A DNA stretch of 64,000 bases from Candidatus Eiseniibacteriota bacterium (GTDB lineage: Bacteria > Orphanbacterota > Orphanbacteria > Orphanbacterales > Orphanbacteraceae). A program made the position numbers and the translations under genes. The notes below the pieces were generated by a model. That model ran no database searches, was not told the origin of the DNA, and saw only the letters and a list, made by a program, of their open reading frames with translations. Shown piece after piece: positions 1 through 19,219 of this stretch. Position 1 is the first letter of the stretch; each line of letters opens with the position of its first letter. The stretch is from assembly GCA_029262235.1 (NCBI GenBank), contig JAJCZU010000004.1:682001-746000 (forward strand), given 5' to 3'.

Positions 1-744
1 GTTCGAACGGTATTCGCCGGAAGCACCCGCACCACCGGCCGCGCCGGATACGTTCCCGGAACCGCCGCCGGACGAACTCGATGACCCGCCCCCGAGCACA
101 TCACCGACCGATTCGATCGAAACCTGCGAACCGGCGAGCGCCGATGTCGTGCCCGCGAGGTCGACGCCTTCGGGACGACCGGCCGGCACGGCGCCGCTTT
201 CGTTTCCTGATCGGGCGCCGCGCACCTGGCGGCGGCGCGTGGCACGCTCCGGTATTTCGTTTCCGCCGGACTTCGACGCCTGCAGTGAGCTCGAGAGATC
301 CGCAAGCACGGCGTCGAGCGACCCCGTAACGTCCGCGAGCTTCCCGGCGACTTCTTCCTTCGCTTTCGCGCGCCCGAGCTGTCCTTTGGTCGGCGCCACC
401 TGGTTCTCGTCGCGCAGCTTGCGCGCGCCCGGCTCTTTCAGTGCGGGATCCGGCGTCTCCGGTTTCGTCTCCGGCACGATCGCCTCTTCCTGCGGCGTGA
501 TCGCCTGCGCCACAGGCACGGGCTTCGCGAGAACAACCGGCTTCGGCTTCTCGAGAATCAGCTTCGCGAAGCGCTCCGGAATGTTCTCGACGTCCGAAAC
601 CGCGGTTTCGCGCGCGGGCGTCACGAGCAGCGCGATCAGGAGCAGAAGCCCCGCGATCGTGGCGATCGTGAGCGTGCGTTTATAGAGCGGATCGACCCCC
701 GCCATGATGGGCTGACGATAAAGCTGTGGAATTGCGTGCGCCAT
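1..744 (-). CDS. AgmX/TonB-like energy-transducing protein (N-terminal part; runs off window edge)
   Basis: Minus-strand translation from CAT at 742-744: MAHAIPQLYRQPIMAGVDPLYKRTLTIATIAGLLLLIALLVTPARE... One N-terminal TM helix, then a Pro/Lys/Glu-rich linker and Ser/Gly-rich stretch; directly downstream of ExbD/ExbB genes. Confidence 0.7.
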   Translation of the reverse strand, partial: MAHAIPQLYRQPIMAGVDPLYKRTLTIATIAGLLLLIALLVTPARETAVSDVENIPERFAKLILEKPKPVVLAKPVPVAQAITPQEEAIVPETKPETPDPALKEPGARKLRDENQVAPTKGQLGRAKAKEEVAGKLADVTGSLDAVLADLSSSLQASKSGGNEIPERATRRRQVRGARSGNESGAVPAGRPEGVDLAGTTSALAGSQVSIESVGDVLGGGSSSSSGGGSGNVSGAAGGAGASGEYRSN

Positions 745-754
745 GTCTGGTTCC

Positions 755-1243
755 TCAGGAGTTCTGAATGACAGCGAGCGAAATGTTGCCGTACCCGCTC
801 TGCTGACAGGTGAACATCACTTTCTGCAGGACTTCGAACGGGATCTCGCGATCCCCCTGAATCGTAACCTGCCCGAGTTCGTCGACCGTTTCGCCCTTCG
901 CCGCGGCGATATGCTCGCGCTTCTGCCAGGCGGCGTCGAGGCGCGCGGCGAGCGCCTCGATCAGCATACGGTCGCTCTGCATGAGCTGCGCGACCTGCGC
1001 GACCGGTTCGCCCCCGATCGTGAGATCGTTCTCGCTGATCGCCACGACGAGCGAAGACTCCGTGTTCTCCGTGCTTGTCGACTTCGGAAGCTCCACCCCG
1101 GGAGCCGGCGTCATGTTTTCGCCGTCCGCCACGAAGCTCTTCAGGAGAAACAGAAGGAGCACCGTGAGAATGTCCATCATCGATGTAATGCGGAGCTTCC
1201 CGGTCGGCTTCGCTCCGCGCTGCTTTCGTCTTCTTCTGCGCAT
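755..1243 (-). CDS. ExbD/TolR family biopolymer transport protein
   Basis: 162 aa: KLRITSMMDILTVLLLFLLKSF..., single N-terminal TM typical of ExbD/TolR; adjacent to TolQ/ExbB homolog. Confidence 0.88.
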   Translation of the reverse strand: MRRRRRKQRGAKPTGKLRITSMMDILTVLLLFLLKSFVADGENMTPAPGVELPKSTSTENTESSLVVAISENDLTIGGEPVAQVAQLMQSDRMLIEALAARLDAAWQKREHIAAAKGETVDELGQVTIQGDREIPFEVLQKVMFTCQQSGYGNISLAVIQNS

Positions 1244-1257
1244 TCTCTTCTTCCGTT

Positions 1258-1770
1258 CTAGTTGCCCGCTCCGAGAAGCGAGATCTGGGGCATGCCGGCG
1301 TCGCGTACCGCGTCCATCACGCCCACGATGTCGTCGTAACGCGTCTGCTTGCGCGCGATGACCATGGCCTCTTCGTTTTCAGGATGCGCCGCCGCGATTC
1401 CCGCCAGCAGTTCCTGCAGCCTGGTCTCGGCGCTCGGCGCGCCGTCCTCCGCTGCCGGCACGACGCCACCCGCATCGGCCTTTGCCGTCTCGCGCGCGAT
1501 CACGGCCGTCTCGATCCCGCGCCCTTCGACAACGAACGCGTCGTCGCGAATCGTGACTGCGAGAAGAAGCGACTCCTTCGCGCCGGAGTTGTCCTGGGCA
1601 TCTTCCGCCGCCACTTCGGGGGGCAGGTTCATGCGTATGACGGAGATCTCCAGAAACACCGCCGACAGCAGCAGCATCGGGATCAGAACCACGAAGAGGT
1701 TCATGAGCGGCAGAATCTCGAGATCCGACTCGATCGCGTTTCCGAGGCCCATCCGTTTTTTGAACGCCAT
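1258..1770 (-). CDS. ExbD/TolR family biopolymer transport protein (second copy)
   Basis: 170 aa: SDLEILPLMNLFVVLIPMLLLSAVFLEISVI...; C-terminal YDDIVGVMDAVRDAGMPQISLL typical of ExbD. Confidence 0.9.
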   Translation of the reverse strand: MAFKKRMGLGNAIESDLEILPLMNLFVVLIPMLLLSAVFLEISVIRMNLPPEVAAEDAQDNSGAKESLLLAVTIRDDAFVVEGRGIETAVIARETAKADAGGVVPAAEDGAPSAETRLQELLAGIAAAHPENEEAMVIARKQTRYDDIVGVMDAVRDAGMPQISLLGAGN

Positions 1771-1787: not shown

Positions 1788-2528
1788 TTAGCGAAGCACG
1801 ACGCGGGAGTTTTCACTCTGCGCGCGCGCGGCCTGCGGTTCATGAGCAGGCGCCTGCGCCCGGCCGGACGTGTGGCTCGCAGCCTGGCCGGCGGACTCGC
1901 CGCCCGCAGTGTTCGCGAGAACCTGAATCAGGCGGTGGCTCATTTCATCGGCCTGTTCCACAATGCGCTCGACCTTGGCCACATAGAATGCATGCAGCAG
2001 CAGCGTCGGCACCGCGACGATGAGGCCGAATGCGGTCGTGTTGAGCGCCTGCGAGATCCCGGCCGCGAGAAACGCCGAACGCTGCGACGGATCGGCCGCG
2101 CCGACTGCCGCGAACGCGGTCGTGAGCCCGAAGATCGTCCCGAGCAGCCCGAGCAGCGTGGCCACGTTCGCGAGCATCGAAAGATGCGGCAGGCGTCGCG
2201 TGAGCGGAGGGAGCGCCACGGCGGCTTCCCCTTCGGCCGCGTCGAGCATCGCGTTCCGGTCGTTCGGCGCCGTCAGAATCGCGAGCGCGATCTGACTCAC
2301 GGGCGCGTTCACTTTCTCGCAGATGGCGGCCGCTGCCGGCGCGTTCCCCTGCTTCACATTGAAGATCACGTCTTCCCGCAGCTTCTTCGCGTTCAGAAGC
2401 GAAGCCCGCCCGATGACCCAGAGGCGCTCGAGCGCAATCGCCGTGATGACGACGCCGATACCGAGAATGACGAACATGAAGGGGCCGCCCCCTTGAAAGA
2501 ACGTCGCAAACATCGCAAAAACGTCCAT
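1788..2528 (-). CDS. MotA/TolQ/ExbB proton channel family protein
   Basis: 246 aa; LPHLSMLANVATLLGLLGTIFGLTTAFAAV and ISQALNTTAFGLIVAVPTLLLHAF are hallmark TolQ/ExbB segments. Confidence 0.93.
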   Translation of the reverse strand: MDVFAMFATFFQGGGPFMFVILGIGVVITAIALERLWVIGRASLLNAKKLREDVIFNVKQGNAPAAAAICEKVNAPVSQIALAILTAPNDRNAMLDAAEGEAAVALPPLTRRLPHLSMLANVATLLGLLGTIFGLTTAFAAVGAADPSQRSAFLAAGISQALNTTAFGLIVAVPTLLLHAFYVAKVERIVEQADEMSHRLIQVLANTAGGESAGQAASHTSGRAQAPAHEPQAARAQSENSRVVLR

Positions 2529-2530: not shown

Positions 2531-2845
2531 TCAGTATTCCTCCTGCTGATCCAGCCCCTTCGGGACGGTGATGATTCTCATCGGAAAGATCGGCCGCGCA
2601 AGCCAGAAGTCGAGGCCGGTCAAATATCTTTTGTGCACTTCATCGGGGTAGCGCGGCTGTACGCGCGACGAGATGAAAAGCACCTGCGGAAGGGGAATTT
2701 CCCCTTCGATGTTGATTTCGTCGAGCGTGCCGAGATCCTTGTCCGCTCCCGTGCCCGCCTGCGCCCCCGCCTCCGTGTTCGCGTCGGCGGTTGCGGCGAA
2801 AAGCAGGAAGAGGAACGCGGCGATTCCGGTCGTCAGGCGCTTCAT
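2531..2845 (-). CDS. Small secreted protein of the TolQ/ExbD cluster, unknown function
   Basis: Signal peptide MKRLTTGIAAFLFLLFAATADA from CAT 2843-2845; contains LDEINIEGEIPLPQVLFISSRVQPRY; abuts TolQ gene. Confidence 0.7.
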   Translation of the reverse strand: MKRLTTGIAAFLFLLFAATADANTEAGAQAGTGADKDLGTLDEINIEGEIPLPQVLFISSRVQPRYPDEVHKRYLTGLDFWLARPIFPMRIITVPKGLDQQEEY

Positions 2846-3678
2846 CGTTCGTCTCCGTTCGTCATGAAGGACGCGATCCCGTCGGGGTCCTGTCCGTGTC
2901 CGCGTTCTTCGTACTTCTCGAACCACTCCGCGCCCGCCTCGTCGTCGAAGTAGTAGTACTTCGACACGATCGCGAGGTTGTAGTAGGGGGCGGGGAGCGA
3001 GGGGTCGAGCGCGATCGCCTGCGCGAACGACTCTTCCGCCGCTTTCGGGTCGCCCTGATAGAGAAGCGCGATTCCATAGTTGTTGTGATTCGCGGCGCTC
3101 TCCGCGTCGGCAATGAGCGCGTTCTCGGCCGTTCGTCGTGCGCCGCTCAGATCGTCGCTCCGCAGATGCAGATAGGCGAGCGAAGAGCCCTGGTCCACCC
3201 AGTGCGCGCCCGGCACCGCGAGACGTTCGCGGAGCGCGTCGGCTTCGTCATAGCGTGCGGCGGCATCGTAGTGAAGCGCGAGCGCGGTCAAGATCGCCGG
3301 GGACGCCGTGAAGTTTTCGGCGCACGGTGCGAGCACCGCGATCGCTTCGCCATGCTCCCCTCGATCGAAGGCGAGCTTTCCGAAGAGAGCCGCCGCCGGT
3401 TCGTAGACCGGATCGCGTTCGAGCGAGGCCCGGAGTGAAGCCTGCGCCGCTTCGACATCGCCCGCTTCTTGCTGAAGGGCCGCCGCCGCAAAGAACCAGT
3501 ACGGTTCGTTCGGATCGTGCGTCGCCTTCTCGAGCAGCGATTCGATCTGCACGCTCGCGCTGCCGGACGCGCCGGAGTCGAGCACGGGATCTTCGATCGC
3601 CGGACCGCTGCCGCCACAGCCCGAGAGCACGAGCGTCGCGATCGCGATCGGCAGAATGCCGTTGCGGTATCCGTTCAT
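2842..3678 (-). CDS. TPR-repeat lipoprotein (GltE-like architecture)
   Basis: 278 aa; lipobox LVLSGCGG; TPR motifs (NHNNYGIALLYQGDPKAAEESFAQAIALDPSLPAPYYNLAIV); overlaps neighbours by a few bp. Confidence 0.82.
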   Translation of the reverse strand: MNGYRNGILPIAIATLVLSGCGGSGPAIEDPVLDSGASGSASVQIESLLEKATHDPNEPYWFFAAAALQQEAGDVEAAQASLRASLERDPVYEPAAALFGKLAFDRGEHGEAIAVLAPCAENFTASPAILTALALHYDAAARYDEADALRERLAVPGAHWVDQGSSLAYLHLRSDDLSGARRTAENALIADAESAANHNNYGIALLYQGDPKAAEESFAQAIALDPSLPAPYYNLAIVSKYYYFDDEAGAEWFEKYEERGHGQDPDGIASFMTNGDER

Positions 3679-6600
3679 TATTGATTCTCCATGAGAAGCT
3701 CTTCGTCAATCGGGGCACCGGTGTCGCTCTTTTCGTCCTCTGTGGCGACGATGACGGGTTCGGGGGGCGCTTCTGCCGCCACGACCGGGAACGAGAACGC
3801 CGGCATGTGCAGGAATCGTTTCGCGACGCGCGGCCAGAGAAGCTCCTGCGTCCTGGCGATCCAGTTCTCGTCGTCCTCGTCGACATTGCGCGACCGGCGG
3901 AGCAGTTCGCCCCACGCCTCTTCGCCGCGGTCGTAGAATTCCCACGCCTGTTCTTCGAGCACGTCCTGATACGCGAGCAGGTCGTCGCCCGTAATTCCCG
4001 ACGGCAGTTCGCTCGCCACGAGACTTTCGCCGAAGTGGACGAGCGCTTCGCCGATCCGATGCGCGGCCGCGCGGTTCCACGGCGTGGTTTCACCCGCGAC
4101 GCAGCGGCCATAGACCTGCAGCACTTCTTCGAGCGCTGCTTTCTTGCTTTCGATCGATGTCTGAATCGGCTGCGTCAGTCGCAGTGTGCGATAGCGCGCG
4201 TACGTCTCTTCGCCTGCGAGGAAATCACCGCGCGCCAGAATCGAGCGATCCGCGAGAGCCGGATGCTCGGCGGCGATGGCGCGATACAGCGCGAAGGCCG
4301 TGGACGGATCGCTCGCAAGATCGGAGTACGGCCGCCCCGCGGCCACGGTTTCGAGATCGCGGTTCGCGCGTTTGCCCAGAATCGTGAACGCGGCCAGCGT
4401 GTCTTCGGGGAAACGCTCGAGATACTGCGTGTAGATCGTTTCGGCCGTAAACGAGTCGCCCGACGCGAGCAGAAGGTCGGCCGCCTTCATGAGGGCCGGC
4501 CCGGCATCGCTGTCGTCCGGGAAGCGCGCGGAAAATCGTTCGAACGCCCGTGCGGCGGAGGCGCTGTTTCCGCTCTCCTCCCACGACTCGGCGATCTGCA
4601 GATGCGCGTCCTTCACCCATTCGCTCTCGGGGTCGCGTTCGATCAGCATGTTCCAGGAGCGGACGGCGTCGTCGACGCTTTTCCCCGCCCGATACGCGCT
4701 CCCCGCGCGGTAAAGGGCGGCGCCGGCATGTTCGTAATCGGGATAGCGAAGCGCCAGGTTTTCGTACTGGCGCGCGGCTTCGAGTGCGCGCGATGAGTCG
4801 GCCGCGGTCTGTTCGGCGTTCCGGTGAAGCGAAACGGGAACCGCGCTGCGAAGCGCCGTTGCCAGAGAATCGCGCCCGAGGCCGGTCGCCACGCGCGCCG
4901 CCTCTTCGTACGCAGTGGCCGCCCGCTCGAACTGTTCGTCGTCAAACAGGATCTGGGCCCGGAGCTGTGCCGCCGTGGCGGCTCGTTCGTCACGCGGGCA
5001 CCGGAACGCGAAGCGCGCGAGGCTCGTGTCGGCGAGATCGTTCCATCCGTGCAGGTAGGCGACGCTCGCCTTGCGCCACAGGAGATCCGCCAGCCGGCTC
5101 TCGTCCGTGACGGCGCTCTCGTGGCCGTCGATGGCGCCCATGAGCTTCTGCGCGAGCGAGTCGGGGCCGGTTTCGCCTTCGCCCTTCGCCGCTTCGTACC
5201 AGCGGTCGTGCGTCGCCACGATCTGGTACGCCGCGTCCTCCCGCACGTTCAACGAGTCGGACTCTGTCGCCATCCCGTAGTGCTCGATCGCGGCCGGATA
5301 CTGCGCGAGCTCCGCGGCCGCTTCCCCCGCGTAGTAGTGCACCGTGGCGATGCCATCACGCGACTTCGTGATTCCATCACGCGACTTCGTGATGCCATCA
5401 CGCGACTTCGTGATTCCATCACGCGACTTCGTGATTCCATCGCGATTCTCCCAGAGGCCGAGCAGTGTTTCGTAACGCGCGTACGCGGCTTCCCAGTCGC
5501 TCGCTTCGCCGGACTCGCGCGCTGTCAGATGTGCGGCGACCGCGAGCTTGCGATAGCTTTCGAACGCGAACGCATCGCCGATCGCGCGGAGCGAGTCAAC
5601 ATCGTTGGCTTCGTGCCATGCGGTGCCTGGCAGAAAGCGCGGCGCGAACTCTTCGCGCGCGGCAAGCGCCAGGTCATTCCGGTTCGCCTGTTCGTACGTG
5701 TCGATCAGGCGCTTCGCCGTCTGGATCGCTTCACCGTCCGTTTCGTAGCGCGTGAGCCAGAGCCGGTCCGCCTGCCCGGACTCGTCATACAGGCTGAAGC
5801 GGCGATAAAGGCGCGCGAGACCGCGCAGGATGCCGCGCTCGTATCCGCGTTCGTCGTTCAAGTCGAACAGCGCTTCGAATGTGGCCGCGCCGCCGCCGCG
5901 GGCGAGCGAATGAATCAGGTACTCTTCGGATTCCGTGCGAAGGTCGGCCGCCAGCGAATCGCCGAGCGACTGCGAATGGTCGAGCAGCCTGCGAAACGAG
6001 CGTGCCGCTTCGTCATACTCTTCAAAGCTGAAGTAAGACCATCCGATCTTGTAGAGCGCGATCGCCGCCAGCTCGGGATCCGGGCCGCCGGCCGCCTCTT
6101 CGAAGTGCGGAATGGCCTCGCGATGGTGCTTCGCGAGGAAGCGGTCGTCGCCGATGCGCAGATGCGATTCCTGATAGTACGGCGACTCGGGATACTCGCG
6201 CACGAGACGGGCGAGCGACTCGACGCCGCTCGCGTCGCTCTGCTCGAGGCGAATCATGCCGATATGAAACAGCACCGCGTCGAGGTGCGGGAAGTCGTGA
6301 TCTTCCGCCAGGATCGACTCATAGAGCGCAAGCGCCGGGGCGTAATCGATGAACGGCGTGGCGCCGCCGGTCCCTTCGAGAAAGGCCGCCATTGTTTTCT
6401 GGAACTGTTCCTTGTCGCGCGTCAGGTATTGATCGGCCAGACGAAACCGAGCGTTGGCGCGGGTCGCTTCGTTCGCGTAGACGTTCAGGAAACGCGTGAA
6501 GCGATCGATCGCTTCGTCGCGAAGCGGCGCCAGTTCCTGCGCGTGCGCCCACTCGTCCGTGGCGATCGCGAGCATGTACGCGATCCCTTCGCCGCTCGCG

Positions 6601-8471
6601 TGATGGTTCGTGGCGGCCGTTTCGAGCGCCGCGCTCACGATCGCGCGCCCGGCAGCACGCCTGGCAGCGGTCAGCTCTTCCTGCCGGCCGAGAAGGCGTT
6701 TCTGCTCGTCTTCCCAGGCGATGATGCGGCGCTCCGCCTCGTTCTCGGCAAGCGCGGAATCGATGATGGCCGCAATACGGTCCGCCCAGATCTCCTGACG
6801 ATCCGTTTCCTTCGCGAGCGCTTCGACGCCGTTCGTCAGATTGGGAATCCATCGTTCCCGAAGCGAGCGGTCGAGAACCGGAGGCATCTTTTCGCCGTGC
6901 CGCGCCGACCATGCGCCGAGTGCGGACGCGAGCGAATCCTCGTGCGCGAGAAGCTGTTCGGGCGTCGGGACGCCTTCGGGAAACTTTCGTTCCCTGCTGC
7001 GATTCGGTCCGTCGACGTAGAACGCATGAAGCGCGCCGCCGATGGTCGCGTTCCGCTCCGCGCGGGCGATGACAGACGCCGTTTTCCGCGCGATCCGGGC
7101 CTTCGTTCGTTCGGTCAGCGTTTCGAGTTCGATCACGGCGGCCGTCACGCTGGCGACGAGGCGATCGATCCAGGCGCCGTTTTCGATGACGCCGTTTCGT
7201 TCGTTCGCGATCGCGCGGCGGCCCTCTTCGAGGTAGGCGCGCAGCCGTGCGGCGTGCTCCCGTTCCATGCGAATCTTCGCGCTCAGCGCGATCCGCTCGC
7301 CCTCGTTTTCGAAACTCTCTTTGTCGATCGCGTCGATTTCGTTCCAGGCCGTGTGGTCCGGCAGCGCATGAAGCGAAGCGAGGTCGCGATCGATTCGAAT
7401 CGGGAAAGACAGAAGATCGTCGGCGTGCGGAACGAACACTTCGTTCTTCCGAAGGTCCGCACCGCGATCGGCACGTTCCGCGTGACGCGCGTCGAGGGCG
7501 TCGGCGTTCAGAGTCAGGGCGTTTCCGGAGCGGAGTCCCGTTTCCCATGAGGTCCAGAGAGAGTCGGCGCCCGCGGAGGGCAGCTTCGACAGGCGCTCCA
7601 GCTCGTACCCTTCGCGCTTCCATGCGTCTTCGGCGGGGGAGAGAACGCGGTAGGCGTCTTCCCACTTCTGTTCGCCGAGCAGGAGGGACGTGAGTTGCAG
7701 CGCCGCCGCCGGATTGCTTCCGATGAACGCGGACTTCGCGATTTCCTCGCGCGCCTCTTCGGACTTGCCGGCAGCGAGCAGGTGCAGCGCAAACACGTAG
7801 GCGGCGTCGGCCGCGACAGGAACATCGTAGGGAATGCGCGCCCGATACGGAGCCGGGTCCGCGCCGTCCCGCACGGCGAGCGTCATCAAATGAAAGTTGG
7901 CGCGCGCGATGAGATCGGCCTCGAACGGCGTCTCCGCTTTGCGCTTCGCGAGTTTCTCGAGCTGGCCGTGCACGTCCTCGCCTCGCTCCAAGCCGAGAAC
8001 GATGCGCGCATAGAGCGCAAAGGGCGTGTCGGTCCCGCCGATCGACTCGAGATCCGCGGCCCCGTAGGCCGGAAGCGGCATGCCCGTTCGATCGGCAAGG
8101 TCGAAGAGCCTGATCCAGAGCGCGGCTTCGTCGTTCTGATCGTGTGACGCCGCCCAGGCGACCATTTCACTCCACGCTTCCGTGCGATGAAGCCGGCGGG
8201 CGAGATGAGCGCGAAGAACCAGCGCGCGCGCGTCCCGTTCGCCGAGTTCCTTACCTGCGGCCGGCAGCGGTGTGTTGGTGAGTTCACGCCAGGCGCCGGC
8301 ATGGTCGCCGCGCGACCAGAGATCGATCGCGCGCCGCAGGTGGTGCTCGTTCCAGTCGTACTCGTGCGCCGCTCCCGCCACGCCCGCCGTTTCCGCCATC
8401 GCAGGCGGGAGGCCGGTCGTGCCGAGCAGCGCAAGCGCGAGAACGCATATAGGAAGAAGGCGAAAGTGCAT
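3678..8471 (-). CDS. Very large periplasmic TPR protein (GltD/AgmU-like architecture)
   Basis: 1597 aa; signal peptide MHFRLLPICVLALALLGTTGLPPAMA; multiple TPR-like units (AIALYKIGWSYFSFEEYDEAARSFRRLL, AGAALYRAGSAYRAGKSVDDAVRSWNMLIERDP). Confidence 0.85.
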   Translation of the reverse strand: MHFRLLPICVLALALLGTTGLPPAMAETAGVAGAAHEYDWNEHHLRRAIDLWSRGDHAGAWRELTNTPLPAAGKELGERDARALVLRAHLARRLHRTEAWSEMVAWAASHDQNDEAALWIRLFDLADRTGMPLPAYGAADLESIGGTDTPFALYARIVLGLERGEDVHGQLEKLAKRKAETPFEADLIARANFHLMTLAVRDGADPAPYRARIPYDVPVAADAAYVFALHLLAAGKSEEAREEIAKSAFIGSNPAAALQLTSLLLGEQKWEDAYRVLSPAEDAWKREGYELERLSKLPSAGADSLWTSWETGLRSGNALTLNADALDARHAERADRGADLRKNEVFVPHADDLLSFPIRIDRDLASLHALPDHTAWNEIDAIDKESFENEGERIALSAKIRMEREHAARLRAYLEEGRRAIANERNGVIENGAWIDRLVASVTAAVIELETLTERTKARIARKTASVIARAERNATIGGALHAFYVDGPNRSRERKFPEGVPTPEQLLAHEDSLASALGAWSARHGEKMPPVLDRSLRERWIPNLTNGVEALAKETDRQEIWADRIAAIIDSALAENEAERRIIAWEDEQKRLLGRQEELTAARRAAGRAIVSAALETAATNHHASGEGIAYMLAIATDEWAHAQELAPLRDEAIDRFTRFLNVYANEATRANARFRLADQYLTRDKEQFQKTMAAFLEGTGGATPFIDYAPALALYESILAEDHDFPHLDAVLFHIGMIRLEQSDASGVESLARLVREYPESPYYQESHLRIGDDRFLAKHHREAIPHFEEAAGGPDPELAAIALYKIGWSYFSFEEYDEAARSFRRLLDHSQSLGDSLAADLRTESEEYLIHSLARGGGAATFEALFDLNDERGYERGILRGLARLYRRFSLYDESGQADRLWLTRYETDGEAIQTAKRLIDTYEQANRNDLALAAREEFAPRFLPGTAWHEANDVDSLRAIGDAFAFESYRKLAVAAHLTARESGEASDWEAAYARYETLLGLWENRDGITKSRDGITKSRDGITKSRDGITKSRDGIATVHYYAGEAAAELAQYPAAIEHYGMATESDSLNVREDAAYQIVATHDRWYEAAKGEGETGPDSLAQKLMGAIDGHESAVTDESRLADLLWRKASVAYLHGWNDLADTSLARFAFRCPRDERAATAAQLRAQILFDDEQFERAATAYEEAARVATGLGRDSLATALRSAVPVSLHRNAEQTAADSSRALEAARQYENLALRYPDYEHAGAALYRAGSAYRAGKSVDDAVRSWNMLIERDPESEWVKDAHLQIAESWEESGNSASAARAFERFSARFPDDSDAGPALMKAADLLLASGDSFTAETIYTQYLERFPEDTLAAFTILGKRANRDLETVAAGRPYSDLASDPSTAFALYRAIAAEHPALADRSILARGDFLAGEETYARYRTLRLTQPIQTSIESKKAALEEVLQVYGRCVAGETTPWNRAAAHRIGEALVHFGESLVASELPSGITGDDLLAYQDVLEEQAWEFYDRGEEAWGELLRRSRNVDEDDENWIARTQELLWPRVAKRFLHMPAFSFPVVAAEAPPEPVIVATEDEKSDTGAPIDEELLMENQ
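5349..5447. repeat. In-frame 21-bp tandem repeat (4 full units plus partial) inside the large TPR gene
   Basis: Units ga[t]gccatcacgcgacttcgt / gattccatcacgcgacttcgt in A-B-A-B order at 5349, 5370, 5391, 5412, then a partial; encodes heptapeptide (S)RDGITK repeated. Confidence 0.97.
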
Positions 8472-9314: not shown

Positions 9315-9316
9315 CG

Positions 9317-9925: not shown

Positions 9926-9933
9926 GTCCGCTC

Positions 9934-10772: not shown

Positions 10773-11477
10773 TTAGAGCAGCCTGTATGACAGCGAAGCT
10801 CTGGCGATCCAGTTTTGAAAGCGGCTTCTCTCGCTCACGATTTCGTCACCATCACGGTGATCGGTATCGAGCGAGAAGAAGACCGACTCGACTTCTCCAC
10901 GAAATGAAAACCTGCCGCCGATCCCCTGGTTCAGCGAAAGGCCCGCGCCCCCGACCCATTCGTCGATGGGGGCGAAATCGACCCGCACGGTTTCGGCCGT
11001 TCCTTCGATCGCGTATTCCACGAACGATGGTTCGTAGCGCATGCCGAGATGGCCCGTGCTCGCGATGAGACCGAGCGACGTGCCCGCGCGGCGAAAGAGC
11101 GTCACGCCCGCGGTCATCTGCACCGACTGCAGCACGACGTCAGACGATTCGTTCGCGCCGAGAGCGCCGGCACCGGGAACGCCGGCGTCCTGCGTCGTGC
11201 CCGTTCGCCAGAAGCGCGTCCCGGCATGAAACCGTCCGAAGCGCGCGCTGGCTTCCGCCCCCCAGACCGGGTGCGGGCCGCGCGCCCAGGCGAAGTCGCC
11301 GAGCGCCTCGTCGAACAGAATCGCGCCCGCGAGGGGCGCTACCGTGAACCGCGCCTCTTCGGCCCGGGCATGCGTTGCCATGGCCGGCGCCCCGAAGGCG
11401 CAGAGCAGCGCGAATCCGTATCGCGCGGCGCGCAACACGGACGAATGCCTGAAGCAGGCACGTTGCATGTCGTTCAC
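10773..11477 (-). CDS. Outer-membrane beta-barrel protein
   Basis: 234 aa; signal peptide; amphipathic beta-strand pattern; ends RFQNWIARASLSYRLL (C-terminal aromatic/hydrophobic strand). Confidence 0.65.
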   Translation of the reverse strand: MNDMQRACFRHSSVLRAARYGFALLCAFGAPAMATHARAEEARFTVAPLAGAILFDEALGDFAWARGPHPVWGAEASARFGRFHAGTRFWRTGTTQDAGVPGAGALGANESSDVVLQSVQMTAGVTLFRRAGTSLGLIASTGHLGMRYEPSFVEYAIEGTAETVRVDFAPIDEWVGGAGLSLNQGIGGRFSFRGEVESVFFSLDTDHRDGDEIVSERSRFQNWIARASLSYRLL

Positions 11478-12067
11478 TCCTGCAATGAAGCGGGTGTTCG
11501 GAGCTCGATGCCCGACGCCAATACCTTCTCATCGGTCGTGAGGATCGGGATGACGACGATGCTGTCCTGCCCCGATTCCAGTTCGATCTCTTCCACATCG
11601 GCAAAATAGACGAGCAGAAAAGTCGATCCCCCGAGCGAATCGCCCATGGCGGGGATCGAGGCGTCGAACTGGAAATCCATACCGCGAACCAAATGGTCGA
11701 AACCGGTGACGAGCACCGACGTAAATCCTGTCGAAGTCGAATTCTGGAGAATGAGATCGATCTGCTGGGCCGAGGAGAGGGAGGGGTTTTCGGCGTCGAT
11801 CTCGAGATCGCCCGGGGCGATCGAAGCGCTGTGGCGAATATCCGCAACCACGGACCCTGTCAGGATCTCGCGGAACGTAATGCGCCCCTTCATGGAAACG
11901 GAGACCGCCCCTTCATTCACCACGCCCGAACCGACGTTCGATTCGGCGATCTCCATCATCGTCCAGCTCTCCTCGATCGGAGGAGTGCCGAGACAGCCTG
12001 ACAGGGTAAAGAGGGAGGCGGCCAGGAGCGTCATGCCCCCGGCCGCCCGGTCTCGCGTGGTTCTCAT
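11474..12067 (-). CDS. Lipoprotein, unknown function
   Basis: 197 aa; signal peptide with lipobox TLSGCLGTPP; overlaps both neighbours. Confidence 0.72.
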   Translation of the reverse strand: MRTTRDRAAGGMTLLAASLFTLSGCLGTPPIEESWTMMEIAESNVGSGVVNEGAVSVSMKGRITFREILTGSVVADIRHSASIAPGDLEIDAENPSLSSAQQIDLILQNSTSTGFTSVLVTGFDHLVRGMDFQFDASIPAMGDSLGGSTFLLVYFADVEEIELESGQDSIVVIPILTTDEKVLASGIELRTPASLQE

Positions 12068-13701
12068 TTCACCAGCACCATTTTCGATGTCTGTTTGACG
12101 CCGTTCACGTCGAGTTCGCTGAGATAGATGCCGGACGCCACCGCGTGGCCGGTGCGATTCGTGCCGTCCCAGGTCACCGAGTGATAGCCCGGTTCGAAGT
12201 CGCCCGTGTGCAGCGTGCGAACGAGCCGCCCGCCGGCATCGTAGACACCCAGCGATCCCGCGTTGTGTCCTTCGGGGATCCGGAAGCGGATCGTGGTCAC
12301 GGGATTGAACGGGTTCGGCTCGTTGCCGAGCAGCCCGAACTGCGGGACGATGTCGGGCTCGTCGCCGGTCCCGAGCTTCATCTCCGCGTAGGCGTCGTTG
12401 CCGCCGTCATAGGTCGAACGCGCCGTAAGACGCAGCGTGAGTTCGCCGTCGGCCTTTCGCGAAAAGTCGTCGCGTACGAATGCGCCGGACTGATCGCCCG
12501 CGTCCACGCCTTCCCACGTTTCCGACGCGATCATCGCGCCGCGCCCGTCGACGAGCTCGGCCGTGACGTCCGCGCGGTCCGTCAGCGTGTAGCGGAACGA
12601 AACGTTTTCGCCGTTCGCCACGTCGAGGTTCTCGATATCGACACCGAAGTGGGCGAGACGAAGTCCGCTCTCAGACGTCCAGTCCTCAACCACCACACCG
12701 CTTCCCTGCCCGGAACGGACTTTCGCCCCACTTCGATGATCGATCACATTGATGAACGGAACGTGGAAGTCGCGCGGTCCCGCGATTCCGTCGCTCCAGG
12801 TCGCTACTTTGTTCATGCCCGGGCTGTACTTCTTGACGCTGCCCGCCTGCGGGTCGGCGGCGTAGATATTGCCGTGCTGATCCGCGTCGAGCGACGTGAT
12901 GATGCCGGATTCGCTTGCGGTCGAAGAGACCCAGCTGAGGTCGGCGCCGTTGTCGAAGAGTTCGACGATGCGGCGGTTGTGCGCGTCGGCCACAAAGATC
13001 TGCGGCGTGTTCGTGCCGCCGGATTTGCCGACCGTGACCGCCATCGGGCCCGCAAAGCGGCCCACGCCGTTCCCGAGCCCCCCGATCGCGGCCGTGCGCG
13101 TGGCGCCGGACGCGCCGAGCCCATAGCGCACGACTTCGTTCCGCCCGCTGTCGACGACATAAAGAACGTCATCGGTCGAGACTTCCGGCGTGCCGGCGTC
13201 CGACCAGGCGACGTCGTACGGTTTCGCGAGATCTTCGATTACGTAGGCCGGCGTCAGCATCAGCTTGTCGAACTCGTTCTTCGTTTCGAACACCACAACG
13301 CGCCGGTTGCCCGTATCGGCTACATAAAGATGCCCGTCCGCGTCGACCGCGAGGCCGTGCGGTTCGCTCAGCGCGCCGATGCCCGATGATTTGCCGTCCC
13401 ATGCCGCGAAGCTTTTTCCCAGTTCGCCGTAGAGCAGCCGGTTCCATTCCGGATCCGACACGACAACGAAGTAGCGCGACTCGACGTACGGAAACCGCTC
13501 GTAGATGTCGGTCTGGCCGAGCACGACGGTCGCGTACGGAGTCCCGAACAGCTCGCGATCGAGCAGGTCGCGCGTGACCGTTTCGTTGATGACGTCGATC
13601 CCGTGCTCTTCGAGCAGCGGCGACGGCACGAACGTGTCGGCCGCGGCGACCGCTGCCAGCAGCGGAATCACCATTCCCAGTTGGATTGCTTTTCTCATCA
13701 C
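12064..13701 (-). CDS. NHL-repeat secreted protein with FlgD-like/type-A-like C-terminal sorting domain
   Basis: 545 aa; PHGLAVDADGHLYVADTGNRRVVVF (NHL); C-term NEPNPFNPVTTIRFRIPEG...YDAGGRLVRTL...VTWDGTNRTGHAVASGIYLSELDVNGVKQTSKMVLVK. Confidence 0.87.
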   Translation of the reverse strand: MMRKAIQLGMVIPLLAAVAAADTFVPSPLLEEHGIDVINETVTRDLLDRELFGTPYATVVLGQTDIYERFPYVESRYFVVVSDPEWNRLLYGELGKSFAAWDGKSSGIGALSEPHGLAVDADGHLYVADTGNRRVVVFETKNEFDKLMLTPAYVIEDLAKPYDVAWSDAGTPEVSTDDVLYVVDSGRNEVVRYGLGASGATRTAAIGGLGNGVGRFAGPMAVTVGKSGGTNTPQIFVADAHNRRIVELFDNGADLSWVSSTASESGIITSLDADQHGNIYAADPQAGSVKKYSPGMNKVATWSDGIAGPRDFHVPFINVIDHRSGAKVRSGQGSGVVVEDWTSESGLRLAHFGVDIENLDVANGENVSFRYTLTDRADVTAELVDGRGAMIASETWEGVDAGDQSGAFVRDDFSRKADGELTLRLTARSTYDGGNDAYAEMKLGTGDEPDIVPQFGLLGNEPNPFNPVTTIRFRIPEGHNAGSLGVYDAGGRLVRTLHTGDFEPGYHSVTWDGTNRTGHAVASGIYLSELDVNGVKQTSKMVLVK

Positions 13702-13718: not shown

Positions 13719-14912
13719 TTAGAAGTTCACCGCCACACCTGATTCGAAGATGTTGGCCGAGAAGTTATTGCTGTTGAAATATCGTTCGTATTTGAAAACG
13801 AGCTTCGGCCGGCGCACCCTTCCCCATTGGAAAAGCGCGTTGCCGAGACTCCAGTCGAGTGTCGTCCCGAAAAGATGGCTCGCAAATTCACCCATGCGAT
13901 AATCCCCCGTGCGATACCCGTCGATCCCTTCCTCCGTCGGATACTCGTCCAGGAAGAAGAACGCGGCGGTCTGATCGTAGAAACGGTAGCGATAGCGAAT
14001 GAGCACGTCGTCGGTCAGATATTGATTCAGGCGTCCGCCGAGCGTGTGCGAGTCGATACCCCAGTCGTCGGTGTAGTACTTGTAGCTGAGGTTCAGGCTC
14101 GAACGATTGCTGAAGTACTGGTTCAGTTTGAAAAACACGTCGCGCCGTTCGCGCCGGTCCGGATGGAGCTCGGCGGCGGGCCCGCCCCCCGCGTATACGT
14201 TGCGGTACGGGTTGTGCAGAATGCCGCGCGCGATGTTCATCTCGCCGCCGATGCGGAGCACCGTGGACCGCGTGAGCACCTGCGTCACGACCGCGTTCCA
14301 GTACGTGTTCGATTTCGAGTCGGCGAAGTTCTCGGTGTCCTGGTCGGCCAGCGGCTTGATATCGTCCCAGCCGTACGAAGAGCCGACGGCGAGGTTCGTG
14401 TTGTCGCCCCAGAGGCCGTAGTTCAGGCCGCCCGAAACCTGCTGCGCGAAGTAATCCGTTTCGTTCGAAACGTAGTAGCCCGCGCTCGCGAAGCGATAGT
14501 CGAGATCGGCCCGGATCTGGTCGCGAAGTTTCGTATAGTCTTCGAACGCGTCGTTCACGTCCGCGATCGGACGGCTCGCGCTCGTAATCGCGTCGGCCGC
14601 CTCGTCCGAACCCGGTACAGCCGCGACGCCCGGAACAATCACGATCTCGCGATTCCATTCCACCTGTACGTCCGCGCCGTTTTCGAGTTCGAGCAGATAG
14701 TCCGTATAGTGCGAATGCACGTGGATGTTGTCCGAGTCGGCGAAGTAGTGATACGTGTACGACGCGCTCTGGTCGAGCACCTGCGCCTCCGCGTTCACGG
14801 GGATGCCGCCTGCGCAGAGCGCGCTTCCCGTCGCCATGGCGACGATCGCAAGCGCTCGCGTGGCGCCCGGTGCATGCGTCGTTCGGTTGTGCGTCGCTAT
14901 TTGCACGCGCAT
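13719..14912 (-). CDS. DUF3570-family outer-membrane beta-barrel protein
   Basis: From MRVQIATHN...; ASYTYHYFADSDNIHVHSHYTDYLLELENGADVQVEWNREIVIVPG typical of DUF3570; next to DUF4266 and TlpA-like genes. Confidence 0.8.
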   Translation of the reverse strand: MRVQIATHNRTTHAPGATRALAIVAMATGSALCAGGIPVNAEAQVLDQSASYTYHYFADSDNIHVHSHYTDYLLELENGADVQVEWNREIVIVPGVAAVPGSDEAADAITSASRPIADVNDAFEDYTKLRDQIRADLDYRFASAGYYVSNETDYFAQQVSGGLNYGLWGDNTNLAVGSSYGWDDIKPLADQDTENFADSKSNTYWNAVVTQVLTRSTVLRIGGEMNIARGILHNPYRNVYAGGGPAAELHPDRRERRDVFFKLNQYFSNRSSLNLSYKYYTDDWGIDSHTLGGRLNQYLTDDVLIRYRYRFYDQTAAFFFLDEYPTEEGIDGYRTGDYRMGEFASHLFGTTLDWSLGNALFQWGRVRRPKLVFKYERYFNSNNFSANIFESGVAVNF

Positions 14913-15126: not shown

Positions 15127-15693
15127 CTATTCCGTTTCCTTCCGCGTTTCGTTCACGGCGCCGGCCGTAACCGGAATCGCGCTCCTGCGACTCGCTACCA
15201 GATCGTCAATCGTCGTGCGCAGCTTCGCGAGCTCCGCCGTGCTGCCGCTCCGCGCGATGTACGCGACTCTGCCGTTCGCGTCGAGCACGTACGTGCACGG
15301 AAGGGAAGGGAGGTCGAGCACGCCGGCGAGACCGTCCGGGCCGTCGAAGAACGCGGGCAGCGTGAGTTTGTTGTCGCTCAGGAAGCGCTCCGCGTGGCTC
15401 TTCTTCGAGTCGACGGAGACGGCCAGGATCTGCGCGCCCTTGCCCGCCAGGTTCCGCTGCCATTCGTCAAACTCGCTCAGCTCCTTGCGGCACGGCTTGC
15501 ACCAGCTCGCCCAGAAGTTCACCACGACGACATCGCCGCGCAGATCTCCGATCGTGAGCGTCTCGCCGTTCAGGCGTTCGAGTTCGTACTCCGCAAGCAG
15601 CGCGGCATGGTCCGACTGCGACGCGCTTCCGAGCGCGAGCGCCGGCATGACCGCCATCGCGAGCAGCACGATGATTTCGTTTTTCACTCGCAC
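15127..15693 (-). CDS. TlpA/ResA-like thioredoxin-family protein
   Basis: GTG start at 15693 after AGGGAGG SD; signal peptide; NFWASWCKPCRKELSEF active site; YVLDANGRVAYIARSG. Confidence 0.88.
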   Translation of the reverse strand: MRVKNEIIVLLAMAVMPALALGSASQSDHAALLAEYELERLNGETLTIGDLRGDVVVVNFWASWCKPCRKELSEFDEWQRNLAGKGAQILAVSVDSKKSHAERFLSDNKLTLPAFFDGPDGLAGVLDLPSLPCTYVLDANGRVAYIARSGSTAELAKLRTTIDDLVASRRSAIPVTAGAVNETRKETE

Positions 15694-15704
15694 GGCCGGC
15701 CTCC

Positions 15705-17699
15705 CTATTTGTACTGGGCGCCGAGAAGCACCCACATTTTGAAGAGGTCCACTTCGTCCTGCGTCAACTCGCCGCCGACCGGATGCTGTCCCTGGTCCGC
15801 CGCCGCGCCGATCCCCATCACGTAGTCGATGAGTTTCGAGCGCCGGGGGAATGCCGGGGAGACGACGTTGCCGCCGCCCATTTCGTTCTCGCCCGAGAGG
15901 CTGATGTACGCCCGCGGAAACACGCGGTCCATCATCGTCGTGTCGATATCGGGCGAAAGATCGAGCGATCCGGGAGGCGCCGTCGTGTCCGGCACGAGTA
16001 CGAGCACGGAGTCGGGCAGCACGAGCGAGTCGCGGTACGTGATCGTCGGCAGATGACAGCCCTGGCATTTCGCCTGGACGATGGGGCCGATGTCGTTTTC
16101 ATAGTTGATGACGGTCGCGTCTTCGATCCGGATATTGAGATCGGTCGGTTCCATGTTCTTGGCGAGCGGATTCGGGTTCGAAATGAACTCACCGCTCGTG
16201 CCGCGGTCTTCGTGACACCCCGTGCACTTGTCGAACTCTTCGCCCGGCCGCGTGTAGATCCACGTGCGCTTGACGACGAAACCGCGCTCGAGATCGTCGA
16301 GCGTCGCGAACGAAACCGGCATGTCGGCCGGCACCTTGATGCGGAACGAGCCGTCTTCCTGGACCGGCGCGAAGCCGAGCAGCGCGCGCTTTTCGAATTC
16401 GTTCGCGCTGATGTTGTTCATCTCGCCGCGCATGGTCGGGCGCGCCGCGATGACCGCGATCTTGTCGATCACGTCGACACCCTTCTGCGGGCGTTCCTGG
16501 CCGTCGCTCGTGCCGCGATTGAAGATGTCCTGCGCCATGAAGATCCCGAAGTCGACGCTCTTGTCGACCGAGTACTCGATGACCGGCTCTTTGTCGCGCG
16601 GCGCGGCGATGCAGGCGTCGTATTCGTTCCATTCCGGGTCGTTGTAGAGGAACGTGAGATCGACGATCTCGATGCGCGCCGGATCTTCTTCCGTGCCCGC
16701 GCCCGTTTCTTTCAGCGTGAACGTGTACAGGCCGTAGTCGACTTCGTCTTCCGTCGCCGAAGGCAGCGTGTACGAAGCCACGTACTTGTTCCCTTCGAGC
16801 GGGAACGGGTATTTGAACGCGCCGTACGCCCACGGGGCGCCGTCGTTGTTCACCTGCGTCGTCAGCACGTCCCAGTGGTTGTCGCCGACAGCCGGATCGG
16901 CCGGCCCGCCTTCGAGCTTCAGCACCGCGATCGGACCCGCGTCCATGTTGATGCGCGTCGACTCGATCGCGATCAGGCGCCCGTCGGGCGTCGGCTGTGC
17001 GTGAAAGAAGTTGCGATTGTGCGGGCCGTACTTGTGAAACGTGCCCGTACCGTCCGGGTTCGTAACGAAGAGCGGGAAGCGGTTGAAGTTCCCGAAGTGC
17101 TCCCAGCGCGTATAGACGATCTGGCCGCTCGGCAGCACCGTCGGATCGAAATCGTCGCTCTGATTGAAGCTGACGCGCTCGATGTTCTCGCCGTCCATGT
17201 CGCATCGATAGAGATGCTCGGCAGGCGAGTGGTTGTACTCATCCATTTCACCGTCGCGGTTGCTCGTGAACATGACGCAGCCGTCCGGCAGGTAGAGCGG
17301 ATCGAAGTCGTCTCCGCCGCCCGACGTCACCTGACGCAGCTCGGTCCCGTCGACGTTGATCTCATAGATGTTGCGCGCGCTGCCGCCCGGCGGCCGCATC
17401 GAGAACAGGATCTTCGTCCCGTCGTACGAGACGGTCGGATCCGAAATCCGCGCGCCCGTATAGTTCGTGATCGCCGTGACTTTGCCGTCCGGCGAAATCG
17501 GCGAGAGCTTGTAGAGGTTTCCCTCGGCGTTGCTCCGGTTCAGCGTCTCTTCGCCCTTCGTCTTGACGAAAATCAGCACTTCCGTCGTCTCTTCTTCGAC
17601 GATCAGGTCGTCCGGCGCGCTCTCCTGACATCCCGGCGCGAGCGCCAGAATGAGGAGACCCGTCCAGACAAGATTCTTCCCACTGCTGTTGCGTGACAT
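15705..17699 (-). CDS. HzsA-like (hydrazine synthase alpha-related) secreted diheme PD40-repeat protein
   Basis: Lipobox-like LALAPGCQES; PD40-like repeats (DFDPLYLPDGCVMFTSNRDG; DFDPTVLPSGQIVYTRWEH); two CXXCH sites KCTGCHEDRG and KCQGCHLPT; overall order resembles HzsA-related proteins. Confidence 0.68.
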   Translation of the reverse strand: MSRNSSGKNLVWTGLLILALAPGCQESAPDDLIVEEETTEVLIFVKTKGEETLNRSNAEGNLYKLSPISPDGKVTAITNYTGARISDPTVSYDGTKILFSMRPPGGSARNIYEINVDGTELRQVTSGGGDDFDPLYLPDGCVMFTSNRDGEMDEYNHSPAEHLYRCDMDGENIERVSFNQSDDFDPTVLPSGQIVYTRWEHFGNFNRFPLFVTNPDGTGTFHKYGPHNRNFFHAQPTPDGRLIAIESTRINMDAGPIAVLKLEGGPADPAVGDNHWDVLTTQVNNDGAPWAYGAFKYPFPLEGNKYVASYTLPSATEDEVDYGLYTFTLKETGAGTEEDPARIEIVDLTFLYNDPEWNEYDACIAAPRDKEPVIEYSVDKSVDFGIFMAQDIFNRGTSDGQERPQKGVDVIDKIAVIAARPTMRGEMNNISANEFEKRALLGFAPVQEDGSFRIKVPADMPVSFATLDDLERGFVVKRTWIYTRPGEEFDKCTGCHEDRGTSGEFISNPNPLAKNMEPTDLNIRIEDATVINYENDIGPIVQAKCQGCHLPTITYRDSLVLPDSVLVLVPDTTAPPGSLDLSPDIDTTMMDRVFPRAYISLSGENEMGGGNVVSPAFPRRSKLIDYVMGIGAAADQGQHPVGGELTQDEVDLFKMWVLLGAQYK

Positions 17700-17719
17700 G
17701 TGTGTCGCCCCCCGCATCA

Positions 17720-18454
17720 CTACTTGAGCTCCCGATAAAACGCGAAGCCCAGCGTTGCTTCCCGGTATTGGTAAGCAACCGTCCCCTCTTCTTCCGTGTC
17801 ACCAATGACGGTCGCGCTCCGCAAATCGAAACGCAGCGCTACGTCATCGCGAATGTATGCTTCGAGTCCCCCGCCGAAGGCGAGGACGTTCTTTGTAACC
17901 GGGTCCGCGCGGAGCGCTTCGCCGGGAAATACCATGATCATTCCGTAGCCGCCGTTCACGAACGGCTGCAGGCGCCACGGAAGCGGATAGCGCACGACCG
18001 CGTTGATCGTGTTCAGCAGCGCGTGCACTGTTTCGCCCGGGCTGTGGCCTACGGTCCCTTCCCAGCCGAGCCACGAGTTCGGATTGAACGCGAGGCGGAA
18101 CTGATACAGACGGTCGTCGCCCAGTTTTCCGTAACCGGGGCTGAACGAAAGCCGCTTCAGGAACGGGCGCGGGCCCGACTGCAGGCTGTAGGGCTTGTCT
18201 TCGAGTTCCGGCACCATGTATTCGATGGAGCGCGCGGCCGGTGCGGCTGCGGGTGCGGCGGCCTGTGCGGCCTGATTGGAAAGAGCGGTCCCGGATGTCG
18301 CTGATTCATGCGAAGGTGGCGTCGCGGGCGCACTCTGCGCCGGCGCCGGTTCGGCGGCGTACGCGTGCTCGGACATCAGCCCGAGCGCGGCAACCGCCAG
18401 CAGCGCGAGCAGCGCCAGGCCGGTCATGCAGATCATGCGGCGATTTTCGATCAT
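17720..18454 (-). CDS. Outer-membrane beta-barrel domain protein
   Basis: ATGA overlap with upstream gene; signal peptide plus Ala/Pro linker; strand-rich C-terminus (LAFGGGLEAYIRDDVALRFDLRSATVIGDT...YREATLGFAFYRELK). Confidence 0.75.
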   Translation of the reverse strand: MIENRRMICMTGLALLALLAVAALGLMSEHAYAAEPAPAQSAPATPPSHESATSGTALSNQAAQAAAPAAAPAARSIEYMVPELEDKPYSLQSGPRPFLKRLSFSPGYGKLGDDRLYQFRLAFNPNSWLGWEGTVGHSPGETVHALLNTINAVVRYPLPWRLQPFVNGGYGMIMVFPGEALRADPVTKNVLAFGGGLEAYIRDDVALRFDLRSATVIGDTEEEGTVAYQYREATLGFAFYRELK

Positions 18455-18894
18455 TCCTCGAATTCTCCCGATTGGATCCATGCAAGGATCGCCTGGTAGC
18501 CCGGATCACTCGTGTCCGCGAACGGCTCGTGATTGTGCGGCGAGCCGCCCCATTCACTTGCGAGCGGTTTCGTAAGCAACGGGCTCGCCTCCATGTCGTA
18601 AGGATCGACCTGCAGCACTGTCTGGTTGAAGTCGTACTCTGGGTTTTTATTGCTCACCGGCGACAGCGCGTACGAGCCGCGGATCCCGCCCCCGTGACAG
18701 TCGCCCGTCGCGCTGCAGCCGCGTTCGACGAGGACAGGTTCCACCTTCGTGACAAAATCGTCATAACTCAAAACGAAATCCCGGCCTCCTGACGGCGGCT
18801 CGGGATCGGCAGTCGGTCCCTTGCATGCAAGAGAGAACAGCAGAATGCCGGCCGTCACCGGTATGACGACCGCCACTCTCACTCGCGTTCGCAT
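18451..18894 (-). CDS. Cytochrome-c-like lipoprotein with atypical CX5CH motif
   Basis: Lipobox LLFSLACKGP; FVTKVEPVLVERGCSATGDCHGGGIRG...; ends AILAWIQSGEFEE, as in cytochrome-like domains. ORF may start at 18933 or 18894. Confidence 0.65.
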   Translation of the reverse strand: MRTRVRVAVVIPVTAGILLFSLACKGPTADPEPPSGGRDFVLSYDDFVTKVEPVLVERGCSATGDCHGGGIRGSYALSPVSNKNPEYDFNQTVLQVDPYDMEASPLLTKPLASEWGGSPHNHEPFADTSDPGYQAILAWIQSGEFEE

Positions 18895-19219
18895 TGTCAG
18901 GCCGTTCCCTGCGCGCATGTTCACGTGTCTCAATCCTTTCGATCATTCTGTCGATCGGCGGCTTTCCGCCACGGCCTGGAATTGCAACCATCGGACCAGA
19001 ACGCGCGAATGGGAAATGCAGCGCAATGCGGTCGATTCCGCACGTTCTCTACACCCGGATGCGCCGTACCTGAACACGTACGTGTCCGGCCGGCCGGGGC
19101 GATGTTCACTCCCGGAACAGCGTGTTCACACTTTGCGCCATCGAGTACGTGTACGGATGAACGGGAGCGCACCCTACTGTTATCGGGTCGATCGGTGCGG
19201 AGCGTGATAAACTCGCGAC

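Follow-up and report, generated by a model that had tools for sequence, protein, structure and literature searches.

An operon joining an Agl/Glt-type core motor to a DUF3570 redox block in a Candidatus Eiseniibacteriota genome

The Agl/Glt core complex, consisting of AglRQS together with GltC, GltD, GltE, GltG and one additional gene, was described in non-gliding bacteria as a single operon (Luciano et al. 2011, PMC3169522), and its genes are insufficient for motility (PMC3169522); carriers listed there include Marinobacter, Saccharophagus and Teredinibacter. The complex was called standalone by Wartel et al. (PMC3858216), and since 2011 it has been regarded as a standalone machine of unknown function. 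Another group of systems is centred on DUF3570: in the Chlorobium protein ApbE attaches flavin to two [ST]GA[ST] motifs, and DUF3570 clusters carry a thioredoxin-like protein as well as DUF4266 (Meheust et al. 2021, PMC8238504). Genes of both kinds form one co-oriented operon in a 64,000-nucleotide stretch, hereafter the window, of the 4.47-Mb genome of an uncultured Candidatus Eiseniibacteriota bacterium (assembly GCA_029262235.1, contig JAJCZU010000004.1, forward strand; G000:C4:682001-746000).

This operon can be considered, with an even chance in our estimation, to encode an Agl/Glt core-type machine that spans the envelope, is driven by the proton-motive force (PMF) and has a redox device as its outer-membrane end. 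Krumholzibacteriota and Eisenbacteria keep the order of the cluster. A shorter version is present in a distant class that, from its gene content and the surroundings of the cluster (with erpA and anmK as flanking genes in genome G519), is probably Gammaproteobacteria. The pairing of motor and redox genes recurs in several phyla, and the core machine may therefore power or position cell-surface redox chemistry. Its continuity with flavin and haem genes in two distant lineages is a lead to the target of the core machine, while the DUF3570 flavinylation systems gain a possible energy source from the linkage to a motor.

Layout and conservation of the operon

The 19 genes occupy the minus strand from position 18,933 leftwards across the start of the window, the last stop being at -278. 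Spacing between neighbours ranges from -31 to +17 bp, with no break between the motor genes and the barrel genes. The tight spacing and conserved order point to one transcription unit, which plausibly ends with the TonB gene g20; no consensus promoters were found at the operon, and terminators were at chance level. The initial annotation had described about 19 co-oriented minus-strand genes with tiny gaps or overlaps, and this holds. Its gene set (an AgmX/TonB-like protein, two ExbD, TolQ/ExbB, a tetratricopeptide repeat (TPR) lipoprotein, a 1597-aa TPR protein, barrels and proteins of thioredoxin and cytochrome-like type) is borne out by profile matches, and the proposal of an Agl/Glt-like energised envelope machine outside the myxobacteria is supported by the GltD match, the AgmX tail and the TIGR04565 barrel. 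The gene for the DUF4266 lipoprotein, of 75 aa and located in another frame, had been overlooked. Several of the mechanically called starts overshoot where frames overlap, the TlpA gene beginning near 15,705 and the DUF3570 gene near 14,912 or later. The genes, all on the minus strand, are as follows.

18451..18933, minus: g02, small lipoprotein, its CX5CH motif (in relatives CX4CH) a possible haem or metal site; no Pfam match; syntenic in 8+ genomes, 41-53% identity
17720..18481, minus: g03, probable small outer-membrane barrel; weak OMP_b-brl 0.0095, TIGR04565 0.0029; syntenic
15705..17720, minus: g04, lipoprotein with a PD40 propeller, a hydrazine-synthase-alpha middle domain and two CXXCH haem motifs; PF18582 4.5e-16, PD40
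15127..15705, minus: g05, TlpA/ResA-like periplasmic thioredoxin, WCKPC; PF00578 4.6e-23, ResA 84.8 bits
14898..15125, minus: g06, DUF4266 lipoprotein with C-terminal GGGCACK; PF14086 8.7e-16
13719..14912, minus: g07, DUF3570 of the short type, predicted to form a 16-strand outer-membrane barrel with the ApbE-type site DAITSAS in a loop; PF12094 2.9e-38
12064..13701, minus: g08, NHL propeller with C-terminal FlgD_ig, surface protein candidate; PF01436 2e-13, PF13860 8.2e-15
11474..12067, minus: g09, lipoprotein, no family match; syntenic in G005, L090, L092, L230, L231 and L233-L235
10773..11477, minus: g10, probable small outer-membrane barrel, no family match; syntenic, 32-39% identity outside the genus
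9934..10755, minus: g11, SH3 domain and outer-membrane barrel (OMP_myx_plus family); SH3_3 8.4e-8, OMP_b-brl 1.6e-6, TIGR04565 61.8 bits (cut-off 60)
9317..9937, minus: g12, exported tandem-PepSY-like protein; AlphaFold pLDDT (predicted local distance difference test) 80, Foldseek 4exr (E 1.5e-4), then 5boi YpeB
8475..9317, minus: g13, membrane-anchored coiled-coil protein, no family match, at the position of the "additional gene" of core complexes
3678..8471, minus: g14, 1597-aa periplasmic TPR protein, C-terminal ~900 aa corresponding to GltD and N-terminal ~650 aa possibly to GltC (fusion); hhalign
2842..3678, minus: g15, TPR lipoprotein at the GltE position; NF033758 GltE 41 bits, below cut-off
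2531..2845, minus: g16, small exported protein at the GltF/CglF position, motif IxGE..LPQVLFI; profile comparison
1788..2528, minus: g17, TolQ/ExbB-type proton channel subunit; PF01618 2.4e-22, TolQ tree
1258..1770, minus: g18, ExbD paralogue a (ExbDa), Asn replacing the proton-carrying Asp (PLMNLFVVLIPMLLL); PF02472 7.7e-13, residue survey
755..1243, minus: g19, ExbD paralogue b (ExbDb), Asp kept (SMMDILTVLLLFLLKSF); PF02472 2.6e-16, residue survey
1..744, minus, C-terminus outside the window to -278 (whole gene L002:17722-18744): g20, TonB-like protein with AgmX/PglI C-terminal domain; NF033768 1.8e-23, TIGR01352 5.4e-7; 340 aa when completed from the genome sequence beyond the window edge

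All 19 genes are present in the same order in G005, which belongs to another genus of the same family, with 34-72% identity; the operon arrangement is therefore far beyond chance. On the Krumholzibacteriota contig JAJDAC010000002.1 (L230) g02-g19 are contiguous, and the TonB gene g20 is found in locus L106, which overlaps it. An Eisenbacteria contig (L231) carries g02-g15, a Gemmatimonadetes-labelled bin (L234) carries g02-g13, and L090, L092 and L093 have the same gene order. Genes in these and the other loci compared below were called by a simple script, and several of the loci end at contig ends or at the 10-kb flank. In relatives the cluster is headed by an ApbE gene, located directly upstream of g02 in three loci of the window clade. 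In the window family, genomes have either both the motor and the linked DUF3570 (G000, G001, G005) or neither (G002-G004, G006).

The motor half and its ExbD pair

The motor half can be assigned by homology to the Agl/Glt core complex, sharing with it TolQ, two ExbD, GltD, a TPR lipoprotein, an AgmX-tailed TonB protein, a coiled-coil extra gene and a compact layout. TolQ (g17) is placed among the core-complex TolQs in the tree. The match of g14 to the Myxococcota GltD of genome G615, the neighbour of a GltE passing the equivalog cut-off, had a probability of 99.8% (hhalign, E 1.3e-27, 681 columns), and those to GltD of other core loci extended over 844-856 columns (E 1e-62 and 1.3e-92), with no match in shuffled-profile controls. 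The N-terminal part of g14 matched GltC (4e-8), but the C-terminal part did so too, and no separate GltC gene is present in the operon; a GltC fusion is possible, though the N-terminal match was indistinguishable from TPR cross-matching. Within g14, at window positions 5349-5441, there is a 21-bp tandem repeat of 4.4 copies, encoding (RDGITKS)n, which may vary between strains.

The lipoprotein g15 is located at the GltE position, has a lipobox-like N-terminus and matches the TPR lipoprotein of distant-class core loci with a probability of 98%, possibly through TPR cross-matching. Profile similarity to Glt components, expected for both TPR proteins, was found for the large one, GltD, and for the lipoprotein was of a generic TPR kind (41 bits against the GltE cut-off of 225). 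The small protein g16 matched its counterparts in other core loci with a probability of 95.8%; it may correspond to GltF, having the same position and a motif that is similar, but the profile match to Myxococcota CglF reached 34% at best. The coiled-coil protein g13 matched those of other core loci weakly (42% in the distant class, and 0.1%). A transmembrane segment and the AgmX tail are present in g20 and an FHA domain is absent, its score with the GltG profile NF033760 being 49 bits (cut-off 650); completion of the gene leftward placed the AgmX/PglI domain at the C-terminus of the left-edge protein, as the initial annotation had supposed. The barrel g11 belongs to TIGR04565, a family whose member also adjoins GltC in the true glt locus of the Myxococcota genome G615, where GltC scores 532 bits (cut-off 450), GltE 243 (225), CglE 85 (70), CglF 88.8 (90) and GltG 553 (650).

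The one-to-one correspondence with Glt proposed at the outset is not supported. Among the Group A genes GltA/B/F/H/I/J/K no equivalog match was obtained in the operon, the only candidates being the TIGR04565 barrel g11 and the small protein g16 at the GltF position. Profile searches of the operon found no GltI, no GltK and no full-length GltJ or GltG, the last two being recognisable only via the C-terminus that they share (about 50 bits, with cut-offs of 450 and 650); of the protonatable Asp pair present in AglQ and AglS, the motor has only one. These features distinguish the window operon from the Myxococcus Agl-Glt and Agl-Nfs machineries (PMC3169522, PMC3858216), with which it has in common the motor type, the GltD homology and the TIGR04565 barrel. 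Unlike the core complex, known as a seven-gene or seven-plus-one standalone unit, the window operon is continuous with a block of HZSalpha-like (hydrazine synthase alpha), TlpA, DUF4266, DUF3570 and barrel genes, its GltC is either fused to GltD or lost, and its TonB protein is devoid of the FHA domain; ApbE joins the redox block beside the motor in relatives and in the putatively gammaproteobacterial class. A TolQ/ExbD channel and a TonB-like arm are shared with the Tol-Pal and Ton systems, from which the operon differs by two divergent ExbDs, by the absence of Pal and of a TonB-dependent receptor, and by a TolQ that groups with core-complex TolQs. In the core loci L117 and L111 (Raymondbacteria, Fibrobacteres) a gene for a protein of about 105 aa, STAS-like by eye, is located between the two ExbD genes.

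In their ExbD pair these motors differ from those of the gliding type. In a survey of 106 two-ExbD loci, some of them near-duplicates, the proton-carrying site of ExbDa is occupied by Asn in 92, Ser in 6 and Asp in 7, with one unreadable, so that Asn or Ser replaces Asp in 98 of the 106; ExbDb has Asp in 108 of 108 loci. Five of the seven loci with Asp in ExbDa are from Myxococcota or Bdellovibrionota, and these five have Asp in both ExbDs. Likewise, in the gliding machine proper AglQ and AglS each have Asp, in contrast to the Asn of the window ExbDa; whether they form homo- or heterodimers is unknown (PMC9389320), and AglQ D28N abolishes function and paralyses the Myxococcus machine (PMC3858216). 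The Asn/Asp split between the paralogues therefore argues for an obligate ExbDa-ExbDb heterodimer. As the swap to Asn or Ser occurs in nearly every core motor and not in the sampled Myxococcota and Bdellovibrionota loci, the question of homo- versus heterodimers becomes testable, as does the number of proton carriers, one or two, required by a 5:2 motor. The window genome also has another TolQ-ExbD-ExbD set, in which the Asn/Asp split is repeated (L217, G000:C6:317084-319692); in the TolQ tree, the TolQ of this set falls with G004 and Fibrobacter rows.

The redox half and its recurrence in a distant class

The trio of DUF3570, thioredoxin-like protein and DUF4266 is complete in the window (PF12094, PF00578, PF14086). 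AlphaFold predicts g07 as a 16-strand barrel (pLDDT 85.9), and the Foldseek matches listed are without exception outer-membrane barrels, TonB-dependent receptors and porins included, all of them generic barrel matches of 6-12% identity; a sequence search of the PDB with the DUF3570 profile returned nothing. The site homologous to the flavinylation motif, DAITSAS, occupies model residues 81-87 within a long low-confidence loop. In relatives this site reads SGAS, SSAS or TAAS, SGAS being that of L090 and of some members of the distant class. The haem lipoprotein g04 matches hydrazine synthase alpha (5c2v_A, phmmer 3.4e-18) in stretches spread along the chain, its score with NF052339 (91.8 bits) being far below the equivalog cut-off of 800; among the operon genes, to which the search was confined, hydrazine synthase beta and gamma had no match.

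Like the ApbE-DUF3570 flavinylation clusters (PMC8238504), the window contains a TlpA-like protein, a DUF4266 protein with a C-terminal CXC and a DUF3570 protein, with ApbE in relatives; unlike them, it has a DUF3570 of the short subtype with TSAS at the site, tied to a PMF motor. The accessible part of that survey mentions no motor association, ExbB being absent from it and TonB occurring once. Since this is the sole paper with the word DUF3570 in the open literature searched, the linkage of DUF3570 to a motor appears unreported there.

A DUF3570 search of 384 genomes led to G285, from the putatively gammaproteobacterial class, in which genes for ExbD, TolQ, GltD, GltC, a coiled-coil protein, DUF3570, TlpA, two barrels and an HZSalpha-like protein adjoin one another. 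The order in this class is HZSalpha-barrels-TlpA-DUF4266-DUF3570-coiled coil-GltC-GltD-TPR lipoprotein-small protein-TolQ-ExbD-ExbD-TonB, contiguous in 8-9 loci and split in five or six more, the halves usually lying within about 25 kb; the NHL-FlgD_ig gene g08 is absent from this version. ApbE (PF02424 2.4e-82) is found in 8 of 15 loci. Among 229 genomes of the class, drawn evenly over families, 38 carry a short-type DUF3570 (defined by bit score), 53 a core-type TolQ (cut-off of 1e-30 chosen by the analyst) and 37 both. Core-type TolQ is thus present in 37 of the 38 genomes with short-type DUF3570 and in 16 of the 191 without it (Fisher test, which ignores shared descent, 7.5e-29; 3.2e-28 without G285). 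The thioredoxin/cytochrome extension, unusual according to the initial annotation, keeps its gene order within the clade and once more in this class.

In the DUF3570 tree the linked proteins of each of the two lineages form a clade, and a joint clade is neither rejected nor shown (p-AU, the p value of the approximately unbiased test, 0.53). In the TolQ tree the distant-class core is nearer to KSB1 types than to the window clade, so that an ancestral, a transferred and a twice-assembled linkage are all possible. Between the cluster halves of G519 (L201/L202) there are genes for ApbE, an unassigned exported protein with an N-terminal RR motif and two CXXCH proteins; a relative in G285 has a weak PSD2/DUF1585 match.

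Mechanism, alternatives and neighbouring genes

In the proposed machine, TolQ and an ExbD heterodimer with one proton-carrying Asp would turn or pull the TonB/AgmX-tailed arm in the inner membrane, and GltD, the TPR lipoprotein, the small protein at the GltF position and the coiled-coil protein would relay the force through the periplasm to the SH3 barrel and other barrels. In parallel, TlpA and the DUF4266 lipoprotein may reduce, or be oxidised by, the DUF3570 barrel, which would bear flavin mononucleotide (FMN) attached by ApbE and pass electrons to or from the haem lipoprotein g04. Most likely, the motor would open, move or position an outer-membrane redox or transport complex rather than propel the cell, and the purpose may be energised redox-coupled uptake or surface electron transfer. 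Homology strongly suggests the PMF channel and force arm, and transmission to the outer membrane via GltD is proposed by homology to a system in which force transfer is shown. The flavin/haem electron chain is moderately supported by homology and neighbourhood, and a coupling of the two halves can be inferred from conserved order, co-occurrence and co-loss. We are doubtful of a further generalisation, namely that redox-coupled envelope motors form a widespread and hitherto undescribed class. In it, the force of a 5:2-type PMF motor on an obligate single-acid ExbD heterodimer would reach a flavin-bearing outer-membrane barrel and a surface haem protein through a trans-periplasmic arm, mechanically linking proton flow and outer-membrane electron transfer.

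Several observations weigh against the proposed machine. The window DUF3570 has TSAS in place of the demonstrated [ST]GA[ST], a pair of such motifs is lacking, and ApbE is absent from the window cluster, the two ApbE genes of the genome being on another contig. The CX5CH of g02 is a non-canonical haem motif, and the motor and redox halves are far apart in Latescibacterota. Finally, the flanks, of at most 10 kb, of 72 other core loci (KSB1, Calditrichota, Fibrobacterota and others) contained neither a DUF3570 nor a DUF4266-like gene; the redox half is therefore not obligatory, being an accessory block typical of some lineages. The same 72 loci with the core alone, together with DUF3570 modules that stand alone with ApbE in many genomes (also PMC8238504), are what would be expected of two independent systems linked by co-regulation only, the motor serving envelope transport or maintenance and the TlpA-DUF4266-DUF3570-cytochrome set periplasmic redox or cytochrome maturation. 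This is possible though doubtful, for short-type DUF3570 occurs without the motor in just 1 of 38 distant-class genomes, a long order is common to two distant lineages, the halves stay near each other even when split, and the SH3 barrel and TIGR04565 barrels, located on the redox side, are of the Glt-locus barrel family.

The remaining explanations assign the motor another task. It might open an outer-membrane transporter in the manner of TonB, the flavin and haem proteins reducing a metal or organic ligand for release; the AgmX/TonB C-terminus of g20, the predicted DUF3570 barrel with its Foldseek matches to TonB-dependent receptors and porins, and the VIT1 iron transporters found in 25 DUF3570 clusters (PMC8238504) are consistent with import, which is nevertheless unlikely, as those matches are generic and neither a TonB-dependent receptor nor a plug domain or substrate-binding protein is encoded among the operon genes. 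Agl-Nfs moves the spore-coat polymer (PMC3858216), and the C-terminal FlgD_ig domain of g08 resembles a sorting domain, so one might envisage surface polymer or protein transport in which the NHL protein is the cargo and is folded or cross-linked with help from the redox proteins; the absence of g08 from the distant-class version, and of glycosyltransferase and Wza-like genes among the operon genes, makes this quite unlikely. As to the surface motility suggested in the initial annotation, TolQ, two ExbD, GltD, the AgmX tail and the TIGR04565 barrel are common to the operon and to Agl/Glt proper, but gliding itself is not supported because the core complex is known from non-gliders, with genes insufficient for motility (PMC3169522); with GltI, GltK and full-length GltJ or GltG not found, and one ExbD without the Asp whose replacement in AglQ paralyses the Myxococcus machine (PMC3858216), a gliding machine is highly improbable.

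Upstream of the operon a 2-thiouracil-desulfurase (DUF523) gene is oriented divergently. On the other side a gene for a PAS histidine kinase (window -1950 to -463) begins on the same strand about 180 bp past g20 and is accompanied by that for a lipoprotein with a DsbD_N domain (1.7e-13; L002:14598-15395, window -3402 to -2605). DsbD has been suggested to donate electrons to DUF3570 systems. At the position downstream of the operon G005, unlike the window genome with its DsbD_N lipoprotein, has only a histidine kinase and a response regulator. Further along the window, at 20838-28694 on the plus strand, there is a fatty-acid oxidation cluster, unrelated to the operon, with genes for acyl-CoA synthetase, 3-hydroxyacyl-CoA dehydrogenase, thiolase and acyl-CoA dehydrogenase.

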